In this document: piece by piece, positions 27,146-32,265 of the stretch
How positions within the stretch are numbered: the stretch's first letter is position 1
How the letters are laid out: each line of letters opens with the position of its first letter
Assembly (NCBI GenBank): GCA_022822785.1
Contig: JAJEAL010000055.1
Location: 1-46,705, forward strand
Reading direction: 5' to 3'
From: Candidatus Poribacteria bacterium
Lineage (GTDB): Bacteria; Poribacteria; WGA-4E; PCPOR2b
DNA: 46,705 bases
The notes under the pieces: generated by a model
Seen by the model: only the letters and a program-made list of their open reading frames with translations
What the model was told of the DNA's origin: nothing
Database searches by the model: none
Made by a program: the position numbers and the translations under genes

Positions 27146-28561
27146 ATGATGAGAATTAAAATGGAATTAGCATGGATTGTCCTCTGTATTTTAATGCTTG
27201 GGGTTAATACGATCCAAGCCCAGGACAATGACCAAAAAGTAGTCTTAATCACCGGAACTGCTTCAGGAATTGGTAAAGCTACCGCAGAATACCTCATTCA
27301 AAAAGGTCACATCGTTTATGGTGGAGACATTCAGTTTGAAGAGAATAAATATCTGGACAAAATCGGTGGGCATTCACTCGATATGGATGTTACAAAAGTC
27401 GATATGGTACAGGCAGGTGTTGACAAAATTATTGAAGAGCAAGGTAGGATAGATGTGCTCGTAAACAATGCAGGTTTTGGTCTATATGCACCTGTAGAAG
27501 AAACGACCGATGAGGATGCTAGGTATCAGTTTGAGGTTAACTTCTTTGGCGTTGCTAATGTCACAAAAGCTGTTCTTCCACATATGCGGAAGGCAAAATC
27601 TGGAAAGATAATCAACATTTCATCGATGGGAGGTAAAATTTATATGCCGCTCGGAGCATGGTATCATGCGACCAAGCATGCTATAGAAGGATGGAGTGAT
27701 TGTTTACGTCTTGAACTGAAAGCATTTAATATTGATGTGGTCATCATTGAACCGGGTGCTATTAACACTAACTTCGGCAATGTGACTGCTCGATACATGG
27801 AAAAATATATTGAGGGCAGCAATTACAAACATATGCTGGAGCCATTTCAGGATATGATGTCAATCCTTGATGATCCTGAAGCAGTGAGACGTATGTCAGC
27901 AGACCCAATTGTGATAGCCAAGGTCATCAATGAAGCCATCAATGCAAAAAATCCTAAAACAAGATATGTCAAAGGTCCAATGGCACGAATGGCAATTTCG
28001 TACCGCCAACTCTTTGGCGATAGAGCTTTTGATGATTTTATATTGCAAGCATTTTACCCTGAAACGAGACAAAGTCTGAATATAGGGACAAATACCTTGG
28101 CTTATCTCAATGATGGTTATGACATAAACTTAACCTACAATATCGGCCTCTGGAGATTTGGATTTTCCTATACAGACATGGATTTTTCCACTGATGATGA
28201 CTTTGAAGATAAAAGAACAGGTATCGGTTTTTATACCGGGGCAGGTTTACTTGTTGATCAAACAGGTATAAACTTTGGTTTAGGATTCGATTATTTTAGT
28301 GAAAATAAAGTCAATGATGTAAATGATGATGGAATAATCCAGCAAAGCCTTGAAAAGGATCTATATCGAGTTTATTTCAGAACAGCATGGCTAAGAGAAA
28401 TCGTGAAAATTTCTAATATAGGTCTCTATGTCGAGCCAGGTCTAGATGTTGCTTATGGATTCGGAGATGAAGATCTGACTTTTGATAGCGGTAAAGTTTA
28501 TGAAGAAGTTGGATTTAAATTTTCCCCATTCGTAAAGTTCGGAACCAAAATAAGGTTTTAA
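27146..28561 (+). CDS. Exported SDR-family dehydrogenase fused to a probable outer-membrane beta-barrel
   Basis: A 471-residue protein. Residues 1-26 look like a signal peptide (basic MMRIK, then AWIVLCILMLGV and an AQA-like cleavage site). Residues about 31-300 are a classical SDR: TGTASGIG (36-43), NNAG (107-110), S160 and YHATK (Y173, K177), so the catalytic set is complete. From about 305 the sequence changes to alternating polar/apolar strands with many glycines and aromatics (GLWRFGFSYTDMDF, GIGFYTGAGLL, GINFGLGFDYF) and ends FGTKIRF, a C-terminal Phe as in outer-membrane barrels. AAGGAG precedes the start. The gene is visibly more A+T-rich than its neighbours, which suggests transfer. 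A dinucleotide-dependent enzyme outside the cytoplasm would be odd; the signal peptide and barrel may instead indicate a chimera. Confidence 0.75.
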   Translation: MMRIKMELAWIVLCILMLGVNTIQAQDNDQKVVLITGTASGIGKATAEYLIQKGHIVYGGDIQFEENKYLDKIGGHSLDMDVTKVDMVQAGVDKIIEEQGRIDVLVNNAGFGLYAPVEETTDEDARYQFEVNFFGVANVTKAVLPHMRKAKSGKIINISSMGGKIYMPLGAWYHATKHAIEGWSDCLRLELKAFNIDVVIIEPGAINTNFGNVTARYMEKYIEGSNYKHMLEPFQDMMSILDDPEAVRRMSADPIVIAKVINEAINAKNPKTRYVKGPMARMAISYRQLFGDRAFDDFILQAFYPETRQSLNIGTNTLAYLNDGYDINLTYNIGLWRFGFSYTDMDFSTDDDFEDKRTGIGFYTGAGLLVDQTGINFGLGFDYFSENKVNDVNDDGIIQQSLEKDLYRVYFRTAWLREIVKISNIGLYVEPGLDVAYGFGDEDLTFDSGKVYEEVGFKFSPFVKFGTKIRF

Positions 28562-28635: not shown

Positions 28636-31600
28636 TCAAAATCTTTGCGACAGGAGTAAGATGGGGACAAAATTACGTTCCTCCCGCAACGCACGCGCAA
28701 CTTCAAACCCAAGGACACGGGCTGGATCGCCGAGGAAGAGAGACAACCCAACTCCAACCGATGTGTTGAAACGATCGAACCGAGGGGCTTCATCGTAGAA
28801 CCAAGCGTCCCCTGTATCCAAGAAAGCTGCTATTACACCGAGAGGTCCTTCGCTGTCATCCAGATATCTGGTTTTCGCAAAATAAATCCGGTACTCCATG
28901 TTGAAGAGGAGAATATTATCCCCGGCGAACTCTTTGGAATCGTAACCGCGCAAGGCGTTGATTCCGCCTAGGTAAAGGAGACGTTGTCTAGGAAGTGGTC
29001 CATCAGAGAAGCCGCCTATCAGACGAAAGTTCAGATGGTGGTTGTTGAACAGTTGATTGTAGCGAACAACCGTAAAGCGATAGAGGTTAAAATCGAAGTC
29101 GCTGTTAAGCCTTTTATCCGCATATTCGACGGAAAAATTCCCTCGCCAACCGTGTTTGGTACGGTAATCATTCTGCATTTGATGCGCTGGCGCCTTCAAG
29201 CTATTAAGATTATAACCCACAGTTACGCTACGCAAGTGTCCCTCATCAATTCGCAGGTTACCCCGCTTTGGGGTGTTGCTATTCAACAAACTCCAGTCGG
29301 TTGACTTAAATAAGATTTCGTGATCTTCATCGGTGAATTCCAGCGTGATGTTCATCGATCGTGTTAACTCACCCTTTACTCGAGCCTGATACCCCTTGCG
29401 CTGATAGTAATCCAAGGAGACGGACCCAAGGAAGAAGGCACCAAGGAATTCGCCACCTTTGGACCATCTAGCATAGCGATTGGCATCTGTTTGCTGATAA
29501 ACACTTCCGCCGATAGTCAGAGCGTGGCGGTCGAACCAACTGTTTTCAGCTCCTAGTTGATAGTTCCAAATTTTACTTGACAGTCCGTTACTGACCTGCC
29601 CGTAAATTTGCGCGTTTGCTTCTATGGTCGAAAGGACTCCACCGCCGCCTAAAATTAAGCCGTGTACACGGTTGAAGTCGAGGATTGGGCGCCAATTCAC
29701 CTTGATTCGGGATCGCTCCTCAATCTCAATAGCAAGCACATTCTGGTCCCCGTCCCGCTTCACCCCCCAACTTTTGATGCTTTTGAAGTAGGGGTTAGTT
29801 TCACTGAGCCGCGTCCGCATCTGATTGAGGCGCGTCGTGCCAATCTGTTTGCTGTAGGCGTCTCCCTGCTTGAAACCGAGTGTATCAACCAACTCCGGGC
29901 GTTTAATTCGGCGGTTACCAGAAAAACGAAGGTCGTCCAAATGCCCTTCGTCAACCTCAATCAACAGATGAGTGTCGGAGAATCGGTGGGTGACTTGTGC
30001 AAGTTCGTAACCGTGATGTCTATAAAGATTTTCAATCAGTTGGCATTTGGTGTTCAGGCTTTCGATTGAAGTGCGTTCTCGCTTCAACCCGAATGCTGCG
30101 CGCAGAAATGGAGATATAAGGTATCTGTTTCCTTGTACACTAAGACTGTCGACAACACTCGTTGGTGCTTCGGTCAAATGAATACGCAAAGTCACTTTAA
30201 AGATAGAAGTTAGCGGCGTCTCATCACCTTCCTCCACCTCCTCTCTAATAGCGTCGCTCGTTTCTATGTGGACATCGCTAAACCAATCGAGCGCTTCAAA
30301 TTCACGACTAAGCCATGATAGTTCATCAATGGAAATAATATCCCCCGACTGAAAGGGGATTTTCTCAAGGACTGCCGATATCGGAATATCGCGGTTTCCC
30401 TCAACCTCGATCGCGACAAGCGAGAACTGTTCCATAAATTCAAAGCTCTGTGCGGACTCGGTCTGCCCCGTCTCTGTCAAACGTATGATACCCATCCGAT
30501 CAGGCCAGTGGGGCCACCAAGGTTGTATTTTGTCATAAGTAGGTGACCAGTAACTGTACTCGACACCCAGCTTTGACGAGGGGTCGGTGACAGTGTCCTG
30601 CGTTTTGCGATGTAGATTAAATCGCCAGTCCCGCTCGTTCCGCAAGGCGGAATCCCGATGTATCGGGACGGGAATCCCCGATGAATCGGGACTTTCGGAG
30701 GTGGAAGGCTCAAGTGCATCGCGGGGCAGCGCAACTTCTACACTCCAAAAAGTCGGCGTAATCTGCGTCTTAACTTCGGCACGCGAATCCCAATCAGGCT
30801 TTGCCATCTTTTCATAAGCAGGTCCAAGGTCGGAATCCAACGGATAATCCGCTTCGATGTGCTGATCGAAAACCGTACCGATCGGGTTGATAACGAGGTG
30901 ATGATAAGTCGGGGTTTTCGGATTGGGATCTATGAGAATCTCTAATGTATCATCAAGCCAAACTGCTGAATCTGGATTGGTTTGTGTGGTTTGAACCCGT
31001 TTCATCTGCGGGTCATATACCCTCGCACCGATATAGAGATACTGTTCATCCCATAGGAGAAATCCCTGTGTCGGTTTGTTTGGTTGTGTAATTGCGTCTA
31101 CCCGGTAGAATGGGGAAAGCGGCACTGACTTTGCCCAAGCTTTCTCGAATAAGTCGCCATCTATTACCGGTTGCACGGACGCGCGCGGAACGTCAACCGT
31201 TGGTGGGGGAGGTAGGTCATCTTCGGCGTAAGGATCATCGACTTCTGTTTCATCGTCGTCGCTTTTGGACTCGGTGGAAACGGATTGGGAGGGGCGAATC
31301 GTAATTCCCTGACCTGCGGTCATTTGAATTAGGGGACCACCATCGTTGATCCAGCCGTGGACGACATCGCCCACATAGGCGGTTTCGAGTGCTACCGGCA
31401 AGTCAATGGTAATAGCGCGTTGGTCCTCGTTTTCAACCTGTAGCTCGATGTCAGCTGGGTAGCTTTCTGGCAAGCGCAGCGAAATTGCTCCATCATACGC
31501 CTTGAGGTCCATTTTTGCCGGTATCTCGTCCAAAACTACCAAATCTATCGAACCGGACTGCGTCTCAAATGTGTTGGCACCACCGGTTAATAGGATCCGT

Positions 31601-32265
31601 CCATAGATTCGTCCTTCTTGGGTGTTGACTTGATAGGCGCCCATCACTTTATCAAGATGAACATTACCGGCTGTTGTTGTCAAAACCATGTCGCCGCGGA
31701 TGCCGTGTACACGAATATCTCCTAATTTTGTTTTGACTTTGAGGGTTAGGTCAGGAGGTGTTTCAATGAAGCAGTTCAAATGGGTCAGCTTGGTATATGG
31801 ATCGGGAGGTTCGGGGAGATGTGGGGTTAACAGCAAGATATCGTCTTTGGTGGAAGTTCCCAGCTGCACGGCGTCGAGATAGGTTTGGACGATTCCTTCA
31901 CTGCTACCTGCCCCACGTTTTTCAAGTTTGACGTTGATATCTTCAGCCGTGGTCGCACTCACCTCCACACTCCCTGCCAGAGGCAGCGTCAGTTCAAGAC
32001 CATATACATCGTCATAGCTAATCTGTTGTTCGGAAGTTGAACGATACTCTGAGATACTTTGTCCAGACGTAGGTGCGCCTAGTTCGGCTCCGATTTCATT
32101 GCTCGATAGGAGGTACTCAGCTTGCGAAATGTCAGTGTACACAGTGCCGTTTCGAGCGTCCTCAACAGAGTGGGACCGATGCTGCGTGTGCCCGCTCCCC
32201 GCCTGTATAACGCTATAGAGCAAGCAGATGTGTAAAATGAGAGTGAATTTTGTGATGGTACTCAT
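28636..32265 (-). CDS. Omp85/BamA-like outer-membrane protein with adhesin-like and CBM9-like N-terminal domains
   Basis: A 1209-residue protein. Residues 1-24 are a signal peptide (FTLILHICLLYSVIQAGSG). About 90-325 is a DUF4097-like beta-helical repeat region (GNVHLDKVMGAYQVNTQEGR, SGSIDLVVLDEI). About 355-590 is a CBM9/DOMON-like sugar-binding domain (PVIDGDLFEKAWAKSVPLSP, LWDEQYLYIGARVYD, DDTLEILIDPNP). About 610-860 has POTRA-like units (VAIEVEGNRDIPISAVLEKI, LSVQGNRYLISPFLRAAFGL, LRFSGNRRIKRPELVDTLGF). The rest is an Omp85 barrel with the loop-6 motif NALRGYDSKEF near 1108, and ends FVPILLLSQRF. It is probably a cell-surface transporter or assembly factor. The start ATG has GAGGTG about 10 nt upstream. 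Confidence 0.8.
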   Translation of the reverse strand: MSTITKFTLILHICLLYSVIQAGSGHTQHRSHSVEDARNGTVYTDISQAEYLLSSNEIGAELGAPTSGQSISEYRSTSEQQISYDDVYGLELTLPLAGSVEVSATTAEDINVKLEKRGAGSSEGIVQTYLDAVQLGTSTKDDILLLTPHLPEPPDPYTKLTHLNCFIETPPDLTLKVKTKLGDIRVHGIRGDMVLTTTAGNVHLDKVMGAYQVNTQEGRIYGRILLTGGANTFETQSGSIDLVVLDEIPAKMDLKAYDGAISLRLPESYPADIELQVENEDQRAITIDLPVALETAYVGDVVHGWINDGGPLIQMTAGQGITIRPSQSVSTESKSDDDETEVDDPYAEDDLPPPPTVDVPRASVQPVIDGDLFEKAWAKSVPLSPFYRVDAITQPNKPTQGFLLWDEQYLYIGARVYDPQMKRVQTTQTNPDSAVWLDDTLEILIDPNPKTPTYHHLVINPIGTVFDQHIEADYPLDSDLGPAYEKMAKPDWDSRAEVKTQITPTFWSVEVALPRDALEPSTSESPDSSGIPVPIHRDSALRNERDWRFNLHRKTQDTVTDPSSKLGVEYSYWSPTYDKIQPWWPHWPDRMGIIRLTETGQTESAQSFEFMEQFSLVAIEVEGNRDIPISAVLEKIPFQSGDIISIDELSWLSREFEALDWFSDVHIETSDAIREEVEEGDETPLTSIFKVTLRIHLTEAPTSVVDSLSVQGNRYLISPFLRAAFGLKRERTSIESLNTKCQLIENLYRHHGYELAQVTHRFSDTHLLIEVDEGHLDDLRFSGNRRIKRPELVDTLGFKQGDAYSKQIGTTRLNQMRTRLSETNPYFKSIKSWGVKRDGDQNVLAIEIEERSRIKVNWRPILDFNRVHGLILGGGGVLSTIEANAQIYGQVSNGLSSKIWNYQLGAENSWFDRHALTIGGSVYQQTDANRYARWSKGGEFLGAFFLGSVSLDYYQRKGYQARVKGELTRSMNITLEFTDEDHEILFKSTDWSLLNSNTPKRGNLRIDEGHLRSVTVGYNLNSLKAPAHQMQNDYRTKHGWRGNFSVEYADKRLNSDFDFNLYRFTVVRYNQLFNNHHLNFRLIGGFSDGPLPRQRLLYLGGINALRGYDSKEFAGDNILLFNMEYRIYFAKTRYLDDSEGPLGVIAAFLDTGDAWFYDEAPRFDRFNTSVGVGLSLFLGDPARVLGFEVARALREERNFVPILLLSQRF
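30653..30691. repeat. Double palindrome inserted inside the Omp85-fusion gene
   Basis: Two hairpins, TCCCGAT-GT-ATCGGGA (30653-30668) and CCCGAT-GA-ATCGGG (30677-30690), lie in tandem within the CBM9-like coding region. In frame they encode the low-complexity SPDSSGIPVPIHRDS near residues 524-538, which looks unlike the surrounding domain. A half copy, TCCCGATTCATCG, lies at about 32662. Confidence 0.65.

Follow-up and report, generated by a model that had tools for sequence, protein, structure and literature searches.

The 46,705 bp contig JAJEAL010000055.1 of a Candidatus Poribacteria genome (GCA_022822785.1), which as a whole constitutes the window analyzed here, encodes a 1209-residue protein in which a Toastrack (DUF4097) beta-helix, a CBM9 domain, three POTRA domains and an Omp85 barrel are joined in a single chain. 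We regard this Toastrack-CBM9-POTRA3-Omp85 architecture and the outer-membrane location that goes with it as nearly certain. The protein is new in being an Omp85 protein with a previously undescribed set of soluble domains, because neither the published surveys of Omp85 and Toastrack proteins nor the other literature searched describe its combinations; within that literature, an incomplete collection, no description was found of a CBM9- or Toastrack-Omp85 protein or of a Toastrack-barrel combination. The pairing of Toastrack and barrel extends to other phyla, where the two are encoded by separate genes, and this link, which was missed when the gene was originally predicted from the sequence alone, best explains the architecture.

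Domain organization of the 1209-residue protein

The gene occupies positions 28636..32265 on the minus strand as one frame of 1209 codons and a stop with an ATG start, a reading supported by the single open frame and by its orthologues; the plus strand of the same interval contains no open frame. The named relatives of the protein, at 57–74 % identity, are all Candidatus Poribacteria. Residues 1 to ~22 (MSTITKFTLILHICLLYSVIQA; 32200..32265, minus strand) read as a signal peptide, with a basic residue, a hydrophobic run and a small residue at the likely cleavage site. The Toastrack beta-helix follows at residues ~80–335 (31261..32028, minus strand), where Pfam DUF4097 matches residues 174–265 (E = 7e-6) with 26.0 bits against the PF13349 cut-off of 22.9, the LiaG family model matches weakly, and a glycine ladder is invariant across 21 homologues. 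The orthologue in family f9 reaches 38.6 bits with the same Pfam model, and a profile of the region found no convincing relative by sequence among solved structures. An acidic, proline-rich linker leads from the Toastrack to the CBM9 domain at residues ~357–600 (30466..31197, minus strand), which is identified by Pfam, by profile matches to the structures 1i82 and 7nwn, and by Foldseek.

The three POTRA domains lie at residues ~610–690 (POTRA 1; 30196..30438), ~700–776 (POTRA 2; 29938..30168) and ~777–855 (POTRA 3; 29701..29937), all on the minus strand. Pfam recognizes POTRA in two stretches, the best at 778–851 (E = 1.6e-12), and there is a weak POTRA_2 match at 726–759 within POTRA 2. The count of three is correct because a profile of residues 604–856, built from 21 homologues, spans three consecutive POTRAs of solved BamA (E = 4.1e-34), and it is this profile that identifies POTRA 1 and POTRA 2.

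The C-terminal Omp85 barrel occupies residues ~860–1209 (28639..29688, minus strand) and ends in Phe. Pfam Omp85 matches residues 893–1195 (E = 1.6e-8; 34.9 bits against a cut-off of 24), and a barrel profile of 20–21 homologues matches 9ccg (5e-10) and TamA (1e-5). A length of ~350 residues is compatible with 16 strands. The L6 motif LRGY is found at residues 1105–1108 (28942..28953, minus strand), both in the sequence and in the orthologues, with R1106 kept in 35 and G1107 in 38 of 39 of them. The domain reading given in the original prediction is therefore sound: DUF4097, CBM9_1, POTRA and Omp85 all exceed their Pfam curated cut-offs, the three POTRA-like units are recovered by the BamA profile alignment, and the LRGY motif is where it was placed, in the barrel.

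A CBM9 domain with a candidate sugar clamp

Pfam CBM9_1 matches residues 368–563 above its curated cut-off (E = 7.2e-11), and a profile of the region from 20–21 homologues matches CBM9-2 of T. maritima Xyn10A (1i82; 5e-9) and the C. kristjansonii CBM9 7nwn (1.7e-4). An AlphaFold2 model of residues 352–602 is weak, with a mean predicted local distance difference test (pLDDT) score of 46 and a predicted template-modelling score (pTM) of 0.52; it was used for Foldseek ranking only, being too weak for tryptophan geometry. The only Foldseek matches under 1e-3 are CBM9 7nwn (4.4e-6, probability 1.00) and the CBM9-like 4jpq, so that structure prediction, weak as the model is, returns a CBM9 as its best match and does not contradict the fold originally predicted here.

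CBM9 modules clamp their sugar with a pair of aromatic residues, which are Trp71 and Trp175 in T. maritima CBM9-2 and Tyr89 and Trp191 in CBM9.3 (PMC8280721). Direct profile alignment of WEQDSVEI with WLDDTLEI places W436 (30958..30960, minus strand) on Trp71. W584 (30514..30516, minus strand) is the probable counterpart of Trp175, from alignment of WWPHWPDRMG with NNSWRDPSKFG, the stretch containing Trp175, which a PDB search matched letter for letter. The choice among W583, W584 and W587 is made by alignment only, within a variable loop, and the WWPHW....MG block is most conserved at W584. Both tryptophans are kept in 19 of 21 profile rows, and W436 is present in 38 and W584 in all 39 of the non-redundant orthologues, a set for which an intact CBM9 motif was one of the selection criteria. 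In six further proteins of this genome the CBM9 domain often retains the first tryptophan, and no clear tryptophan is seen at the second site. This absence, together with the conservation of W436 and W584, tips the balance slightly towards real sugar binding, which is thus favored, not proven.

A stand-alone CBM9 protein of ~250 residues is also encoded in the genome (L005 1504-2250; G000:C10:43312-43998). Its match crosses one in-frame stop, and the same situation is seen in two related genomes (G005:C9:28097 and G004:C52:215493).

Conservation within the Poribacteria

Queried with the single protein, 78 of 85 Poribacteria genomes match at 1e-25, barrel-only matches included, and the 21-row profile matches across essentially the whole model in 68 of the 85. 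In G036 and G043 the whole-model match is split in two pieces within one open frame, and a few further genomes carry shorter pieces, probably ended by contig ends. About 70 of the 85 genomes thus carry the fusion in a single open frame, with one copy in each. Among ~200 genomes sampled from other phyla, with the two best candidates per genome scored against the profile, the full architecture was found in none and the barrel alone, at 1e-60, in four.

The orthologues of the fusion, at 27–77 % identity, come from separately assembled genomes, some of them single-contig. Misassembly joining two genes, a danger raised with the original prediction, is ruled out because the same frame recurs in these ~70 separate assemblies, and the probability left to an assembly artefact is practically nil. 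The gene is absent from family f7 and from the same-genus genome G004; as the genomes are largely metagenome-assembled, these absences may partly be gaps.

Compared with families f6, f8, f9 and f10, the CBM9 domain is 33–45 % identical, the barrel 35–42 % and POTRA 1 20–24 %. The CBM9 domain changes more slowly than POTRA 1, and in most comparisons than POTRA 2, and is therefore under stronger constraint than POTRA 1. In family f4, three genomes encode a form of 650–690 residues in which the Toastrack and barrel are kept and the CBM9 and POTRAs are both absent, and in G043 the CBM9 has decayed past Pfam recognition and the POTRAs fall under their cut-off, with the remainder retained. A barrel tree bearing on whether the f4 form reflects loss or an older state has poorly supported inner branches and long outgroup branches; loss is preferred on the sole ground that the complete architecture also occurs in f6, f8, f9 and f10, outside the order. 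Because f4, G043 and the pairs in other phyla described below vary in CBM9 and POTRAs, the Toastrack and the barrel are the constant core, and the CBM9 and POTRAs are a poribacterial module.

Among mechanically made gene calls, no glycan-related gene conserved beside the Poribacteria loci was found. An operon shared with a glycan system was considered and rejected, as the neighbors change from family to family. Only one downstream gene recurs, in families f2 and f3; its sequence reads as that of a GcvT/YgfZ-like protein, and in f3 alone genes for a TPR protein and for a TRAP-type binding protein lie beyond it.

Toastrack and barrel are paired in other phyla

The nearest barrels found outside the Poribacteria, which match the profile at E values of about 1e-45 to 1e-75, are present in 64 of 82 genomes of one phylum, in 7 of 9 and 3 of 6 genomes of two others, and in the single genome covered from a fourth. 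These proteins are shorter; ahead of the barrel they have hardly any N-terminal domain or none, or in some cases a weak bactofilin-like stretch. Across 44 such loci, with mechanically made gene calls, no CBM9 or POTRA profile match was found in any. Twenty of these 44 loci have a DUF4097-like gene no more than 3.5 kb from the barrel and on its strand, nearly always downstream (in G141 the Toastrack is upstream), where ~0.3 would be expected by chance, an estimate that overstates independence because the loci share gene order by descent. Further loci have a LiaF-like Toastrack gene directly downstream of the barrel. In 21 of 25 genomes, chosen partly because the neighbor had already been seen, a Pfam DUF4097 match falls within ~3 kb of the barrel match, where DUF4097 density predicts 0.7 % per locus.

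The barrel-Toastrack pattern is thus seen in at least three phyla, in addition to the fusion in Poribacteria, and we consider it very probable that the two form a functional pair. The short Omp85 genes of other phyla and their Toastrack neighbors are two or three separate genes, whereas the Poribacteria have one chain. Since the nearest barrels elsewhere lack POTRAs and CBM9 and often adjoin separate secreted Toastrack genes, this looks like an older pair that became fused in Poribacteria, with the CBM9 and POTRAs between. The poribacterial Toastrack was not found to be particularly close to the barrel-linked ones elsewhere; further Toastracks encoded in its genome score just as high, and the idea was rejected.

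In the phylum of G273 (L138, L140, L144, L145 and others) the short Omp85 gene lies in a recurring gene run, followed by Toastrack genes; the run reads as ileS, a DksA-type gene, lspA and an RluD-type pseudouridine synthase. The poribacterial genome itself contains a locus (L080 279-3892; G000:C102) encoding three Toastrack-type proteins consecutively, of which the third has a signal peptide and the first two start with a similar short stretch, VLKMxAEGKIxAEE, by appearance a small helical domain.

Relationship to known systems

With three BamA-type POTRAs and an LRGY barrel, the protein resembles BamA, TamA and the 'BamA-like' Omp85 proteins (Heinz and Lithgow 2014, PMC4104836), and it likewise occurs in addition to a true BamA. 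It differs from BamA and TamA in having a Toastrack and a CBM9 in front and in scoring far under both cut-offs, with 69.9 bits against BamA TIGR03303 (cut-off 297) and 31.2 bits against TamA NF047950 (cut-off 625). The true BamA of the genome, above the TIGR03303 cut-off, is on contig C92 (G000:C92), near a TamB. Identity as BamA or TamA is ruled out by these cut-offs and by the separate BamA near TamB, and since the genome has its BamA and TamB genes at another site, the 1209-residue protein is an additional Omp85 and not the main assembly factor. The Omp85 architecture survey distinguishes ten subfamilies, none of them described with a CBM9 or DUF4097 domain (PMC4104836).

Other Omp85-type proteins of the genome are a BamA-like protein of 612 residues, a POTRA protein of 588 residues, a propeller-peptidase-Omp85 and an 831-residue protein. 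The propeller-peptidase-Omp85 (L076 2329-5193; G000:C7) has 955 residues, with a peptidase-MA domain, PD40 beta-propeller repeats and an Omp85 barrel, and is an elaborated WD40-Omp85. The 831-residue Omp85 (L079 4451-6943; G000:C85) has one POTRA and an N-terminal region of ~370 residues and is also found at G005:C154 and G024:C43; barrels of this type have adjacent copies in several poribacterial genomes.

PlpD and the patatin-Omp85 (type Vd) proteins likewise have an additional domain at the N-terminus, ahead of POTRA and barrel within a single chain; that of PlpD was expected outside the cell and was found to be periplasmic (PMC11116518). There, however, the domain is a patatin enzyme, whereas here it is a non-enzymatic beta-helix plus CBM9 followed by three POTRAs, and Pfam gives no patatin match in the 1209-residue protein. 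The DUF5916 outer-membrane proteins (PF19313 with PF06452) likewise carry a CBM9-type domain N-terminal to an outer-membrane barrel. Their barrel belongs to a different family, they have neither POTRA nor Toastrack, and their second clamp tryptophan is not seen; the protein described here has no Pfam DUF5916 (PF19313) match at E values up to 1. The genome encodes at least one confirmed DUF5916 protein with CBM9_1, along with several other CBM9 proteins of similar size. The beta-helix is the same domain as in the Toastrack (DUF4097/LiaG/LiaF-C) phage-shock proteins; unlike those it has an export signal and forms one chain with an Omp85 barrel, and the survey of Toastrack proteins describes them as intracellular and membrane-linked, with no mention of a barrel or the outer membrane (PMC11237479).

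Proposed function

The most likely reading is that of an outer-membrane assembly or envelope-organizing device with a periplasmic glycan-docking arm. By what is known of the Omp85 family, the barrel would sit in the outer membrane with all of the soluble domains hanging in the periplasm below it; the family pattern and the example of PlpD make a periplasmic CBM9, as envisaged in the original prediction, probable. The Toastrack would provide a flat docking surface at the barrel, and the CBM9, through its two conserved tryptophans, could grip the end of a periplasmic glycan, with a peptidoglycan strand, a surface-polysaccharide intermediate or a glycosylated client as candidates. Such a grip may position or load the machine, and by analogy the POTRAs would pass a polypeptide to the barrel, which would insert it into the outer membrane or let it through. 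Protein assembly or translocation as the job of the barrel is, by the same analogy, evenly poised between true and false. The picture as a whole, of an additional Omp85 with a Toastrack-barrel core, a periplasmic glycan-docking CBM9 and POTRAs feeding the barrel, is offered tentatively, at somewhat less than an even chance.

Several observations weigh against it. Family f4 and the relatives in other phyla have no POTRAs, which argues against POTRA-dependent protein assembly as the ancestral job of the barrel. No conserved Poribacteria neighbor indicating a glycan or a client was found, and the 44 loci behind the pairing are mostly from one phylum, with gene order shared by descent. The one survey review of the Toastrack puts it inside the cell (PMC11237479). 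The full-length AlphaFold2 model, from a shallow alignment of five rows, has a pLDDT of 31, with POTRA 3 the only part near 60, and is unusable for strand count or packing.

The same features admit other explanations, which differ mainly in what they ask of the CBM9. If the protein were a surface-display system, of the kind first proposed for type Vd secretion, the barrel would carry the Toastrack and CBM9 outside, where the CBM9 would be a glycan adhesin, for host glycans if the bacterium is a symbiont. An N-terminal domain ahead of POTRA and barrel is the type Vd layout, and type V secretion typically involves beta-helix passengers; PlpD-type proteins, however, have a single POTRA and not three, the f4 form has no POTRA for guiding a passenger, and near-universal single-copy inheritance suits housekeeping better than a host adhesin. 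The phylum does include sponge symbionts (PMC3909097), but retention of the N-terminal domain in the periplasm by PlpD, the type Vd prototype (PMC11116518), adds to the reasons for judging display unlikely. Somewhat less improbable, although still on the doubtful side, is that the CBM9 serves purely as a scaffold, spacing the Toastrack from the POTRAs or offering a surface to proteins, and holds no sugar, as may be so for the DUF5916-type barrels: a counterpart of W436 is also present in the DUF5916-type CBM9 domains of this genome, CBM9.1, which has no aromatic pair, bound none of the natural glycans tried (PMC8280721), and G043 has retained the rest of the protein with a decayed CBM9. This explanation has to contend with the near invariance of both tryptophans and the adjacent polar residues in proteins whose POTRA 1 falls to ~20 % identity.

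The original prediction had suggested that the protein could be a substrate-specific device for export or uptake of glycans or glycoproteins, as the presence of a CBM9 in one chain with an outer-membrane barrel might suggest. That proposal does not fit a single-copy, phylum-wide gene that is not in a sugar-use locus and has no conserved carbohydrate-use or other glycan gene beside it. The CBM9 and POTRAs can be missing together while Toastrack and barrel stay, forms without the CBM9 persist, and we know of no Omp85 barrel that passes glycans; a transport role for glycans or glycoproteins is very improbable.

A broader version of the assembly-device reading would make Toastrack-Omp85 a multi-phylum outer-membrane machine, in which an exported beta-helix docks on and controls the barrel and to which the poribacterial form adds a glycan sensor, coupling barrel insertion or passage to the state of the cell wall or surface glycans. 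We put this forward as a speculation that is quite unlikely to hold in full.

Adjoining gene

A 471-residue frame at 27146-28558 on the plus strand encodes a signal peptide and a complete short-chain dehydrogenase (adh_short, 1.4e-48) and ends in ~170 residues resembling barrel strands (Porin_4, weak, 0.007). No relative of the protein was found at 1e-60 among 39 related genomes, and for this reason the gene may have arisen by recent fusion or may reflect a join made in assembly.

Significance

Omp85 proteins serve in building the outer membrane and in crossing it; the scaffold can also take on other jobs, as PlpD already shows. A near-universal, single-copy CBM9-Omp85 in a largely uncultured phylum makes a coupling of outer-membrane assembly to a periplasmic glycan testable. 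Through the pairing, the little-understood Toastrack, which has so far been seen as a domain of intracellular stress responses, also acquires a likely role at the outer membrane, and two unnamed genes in many genomes of other phyla gain a functional lead.

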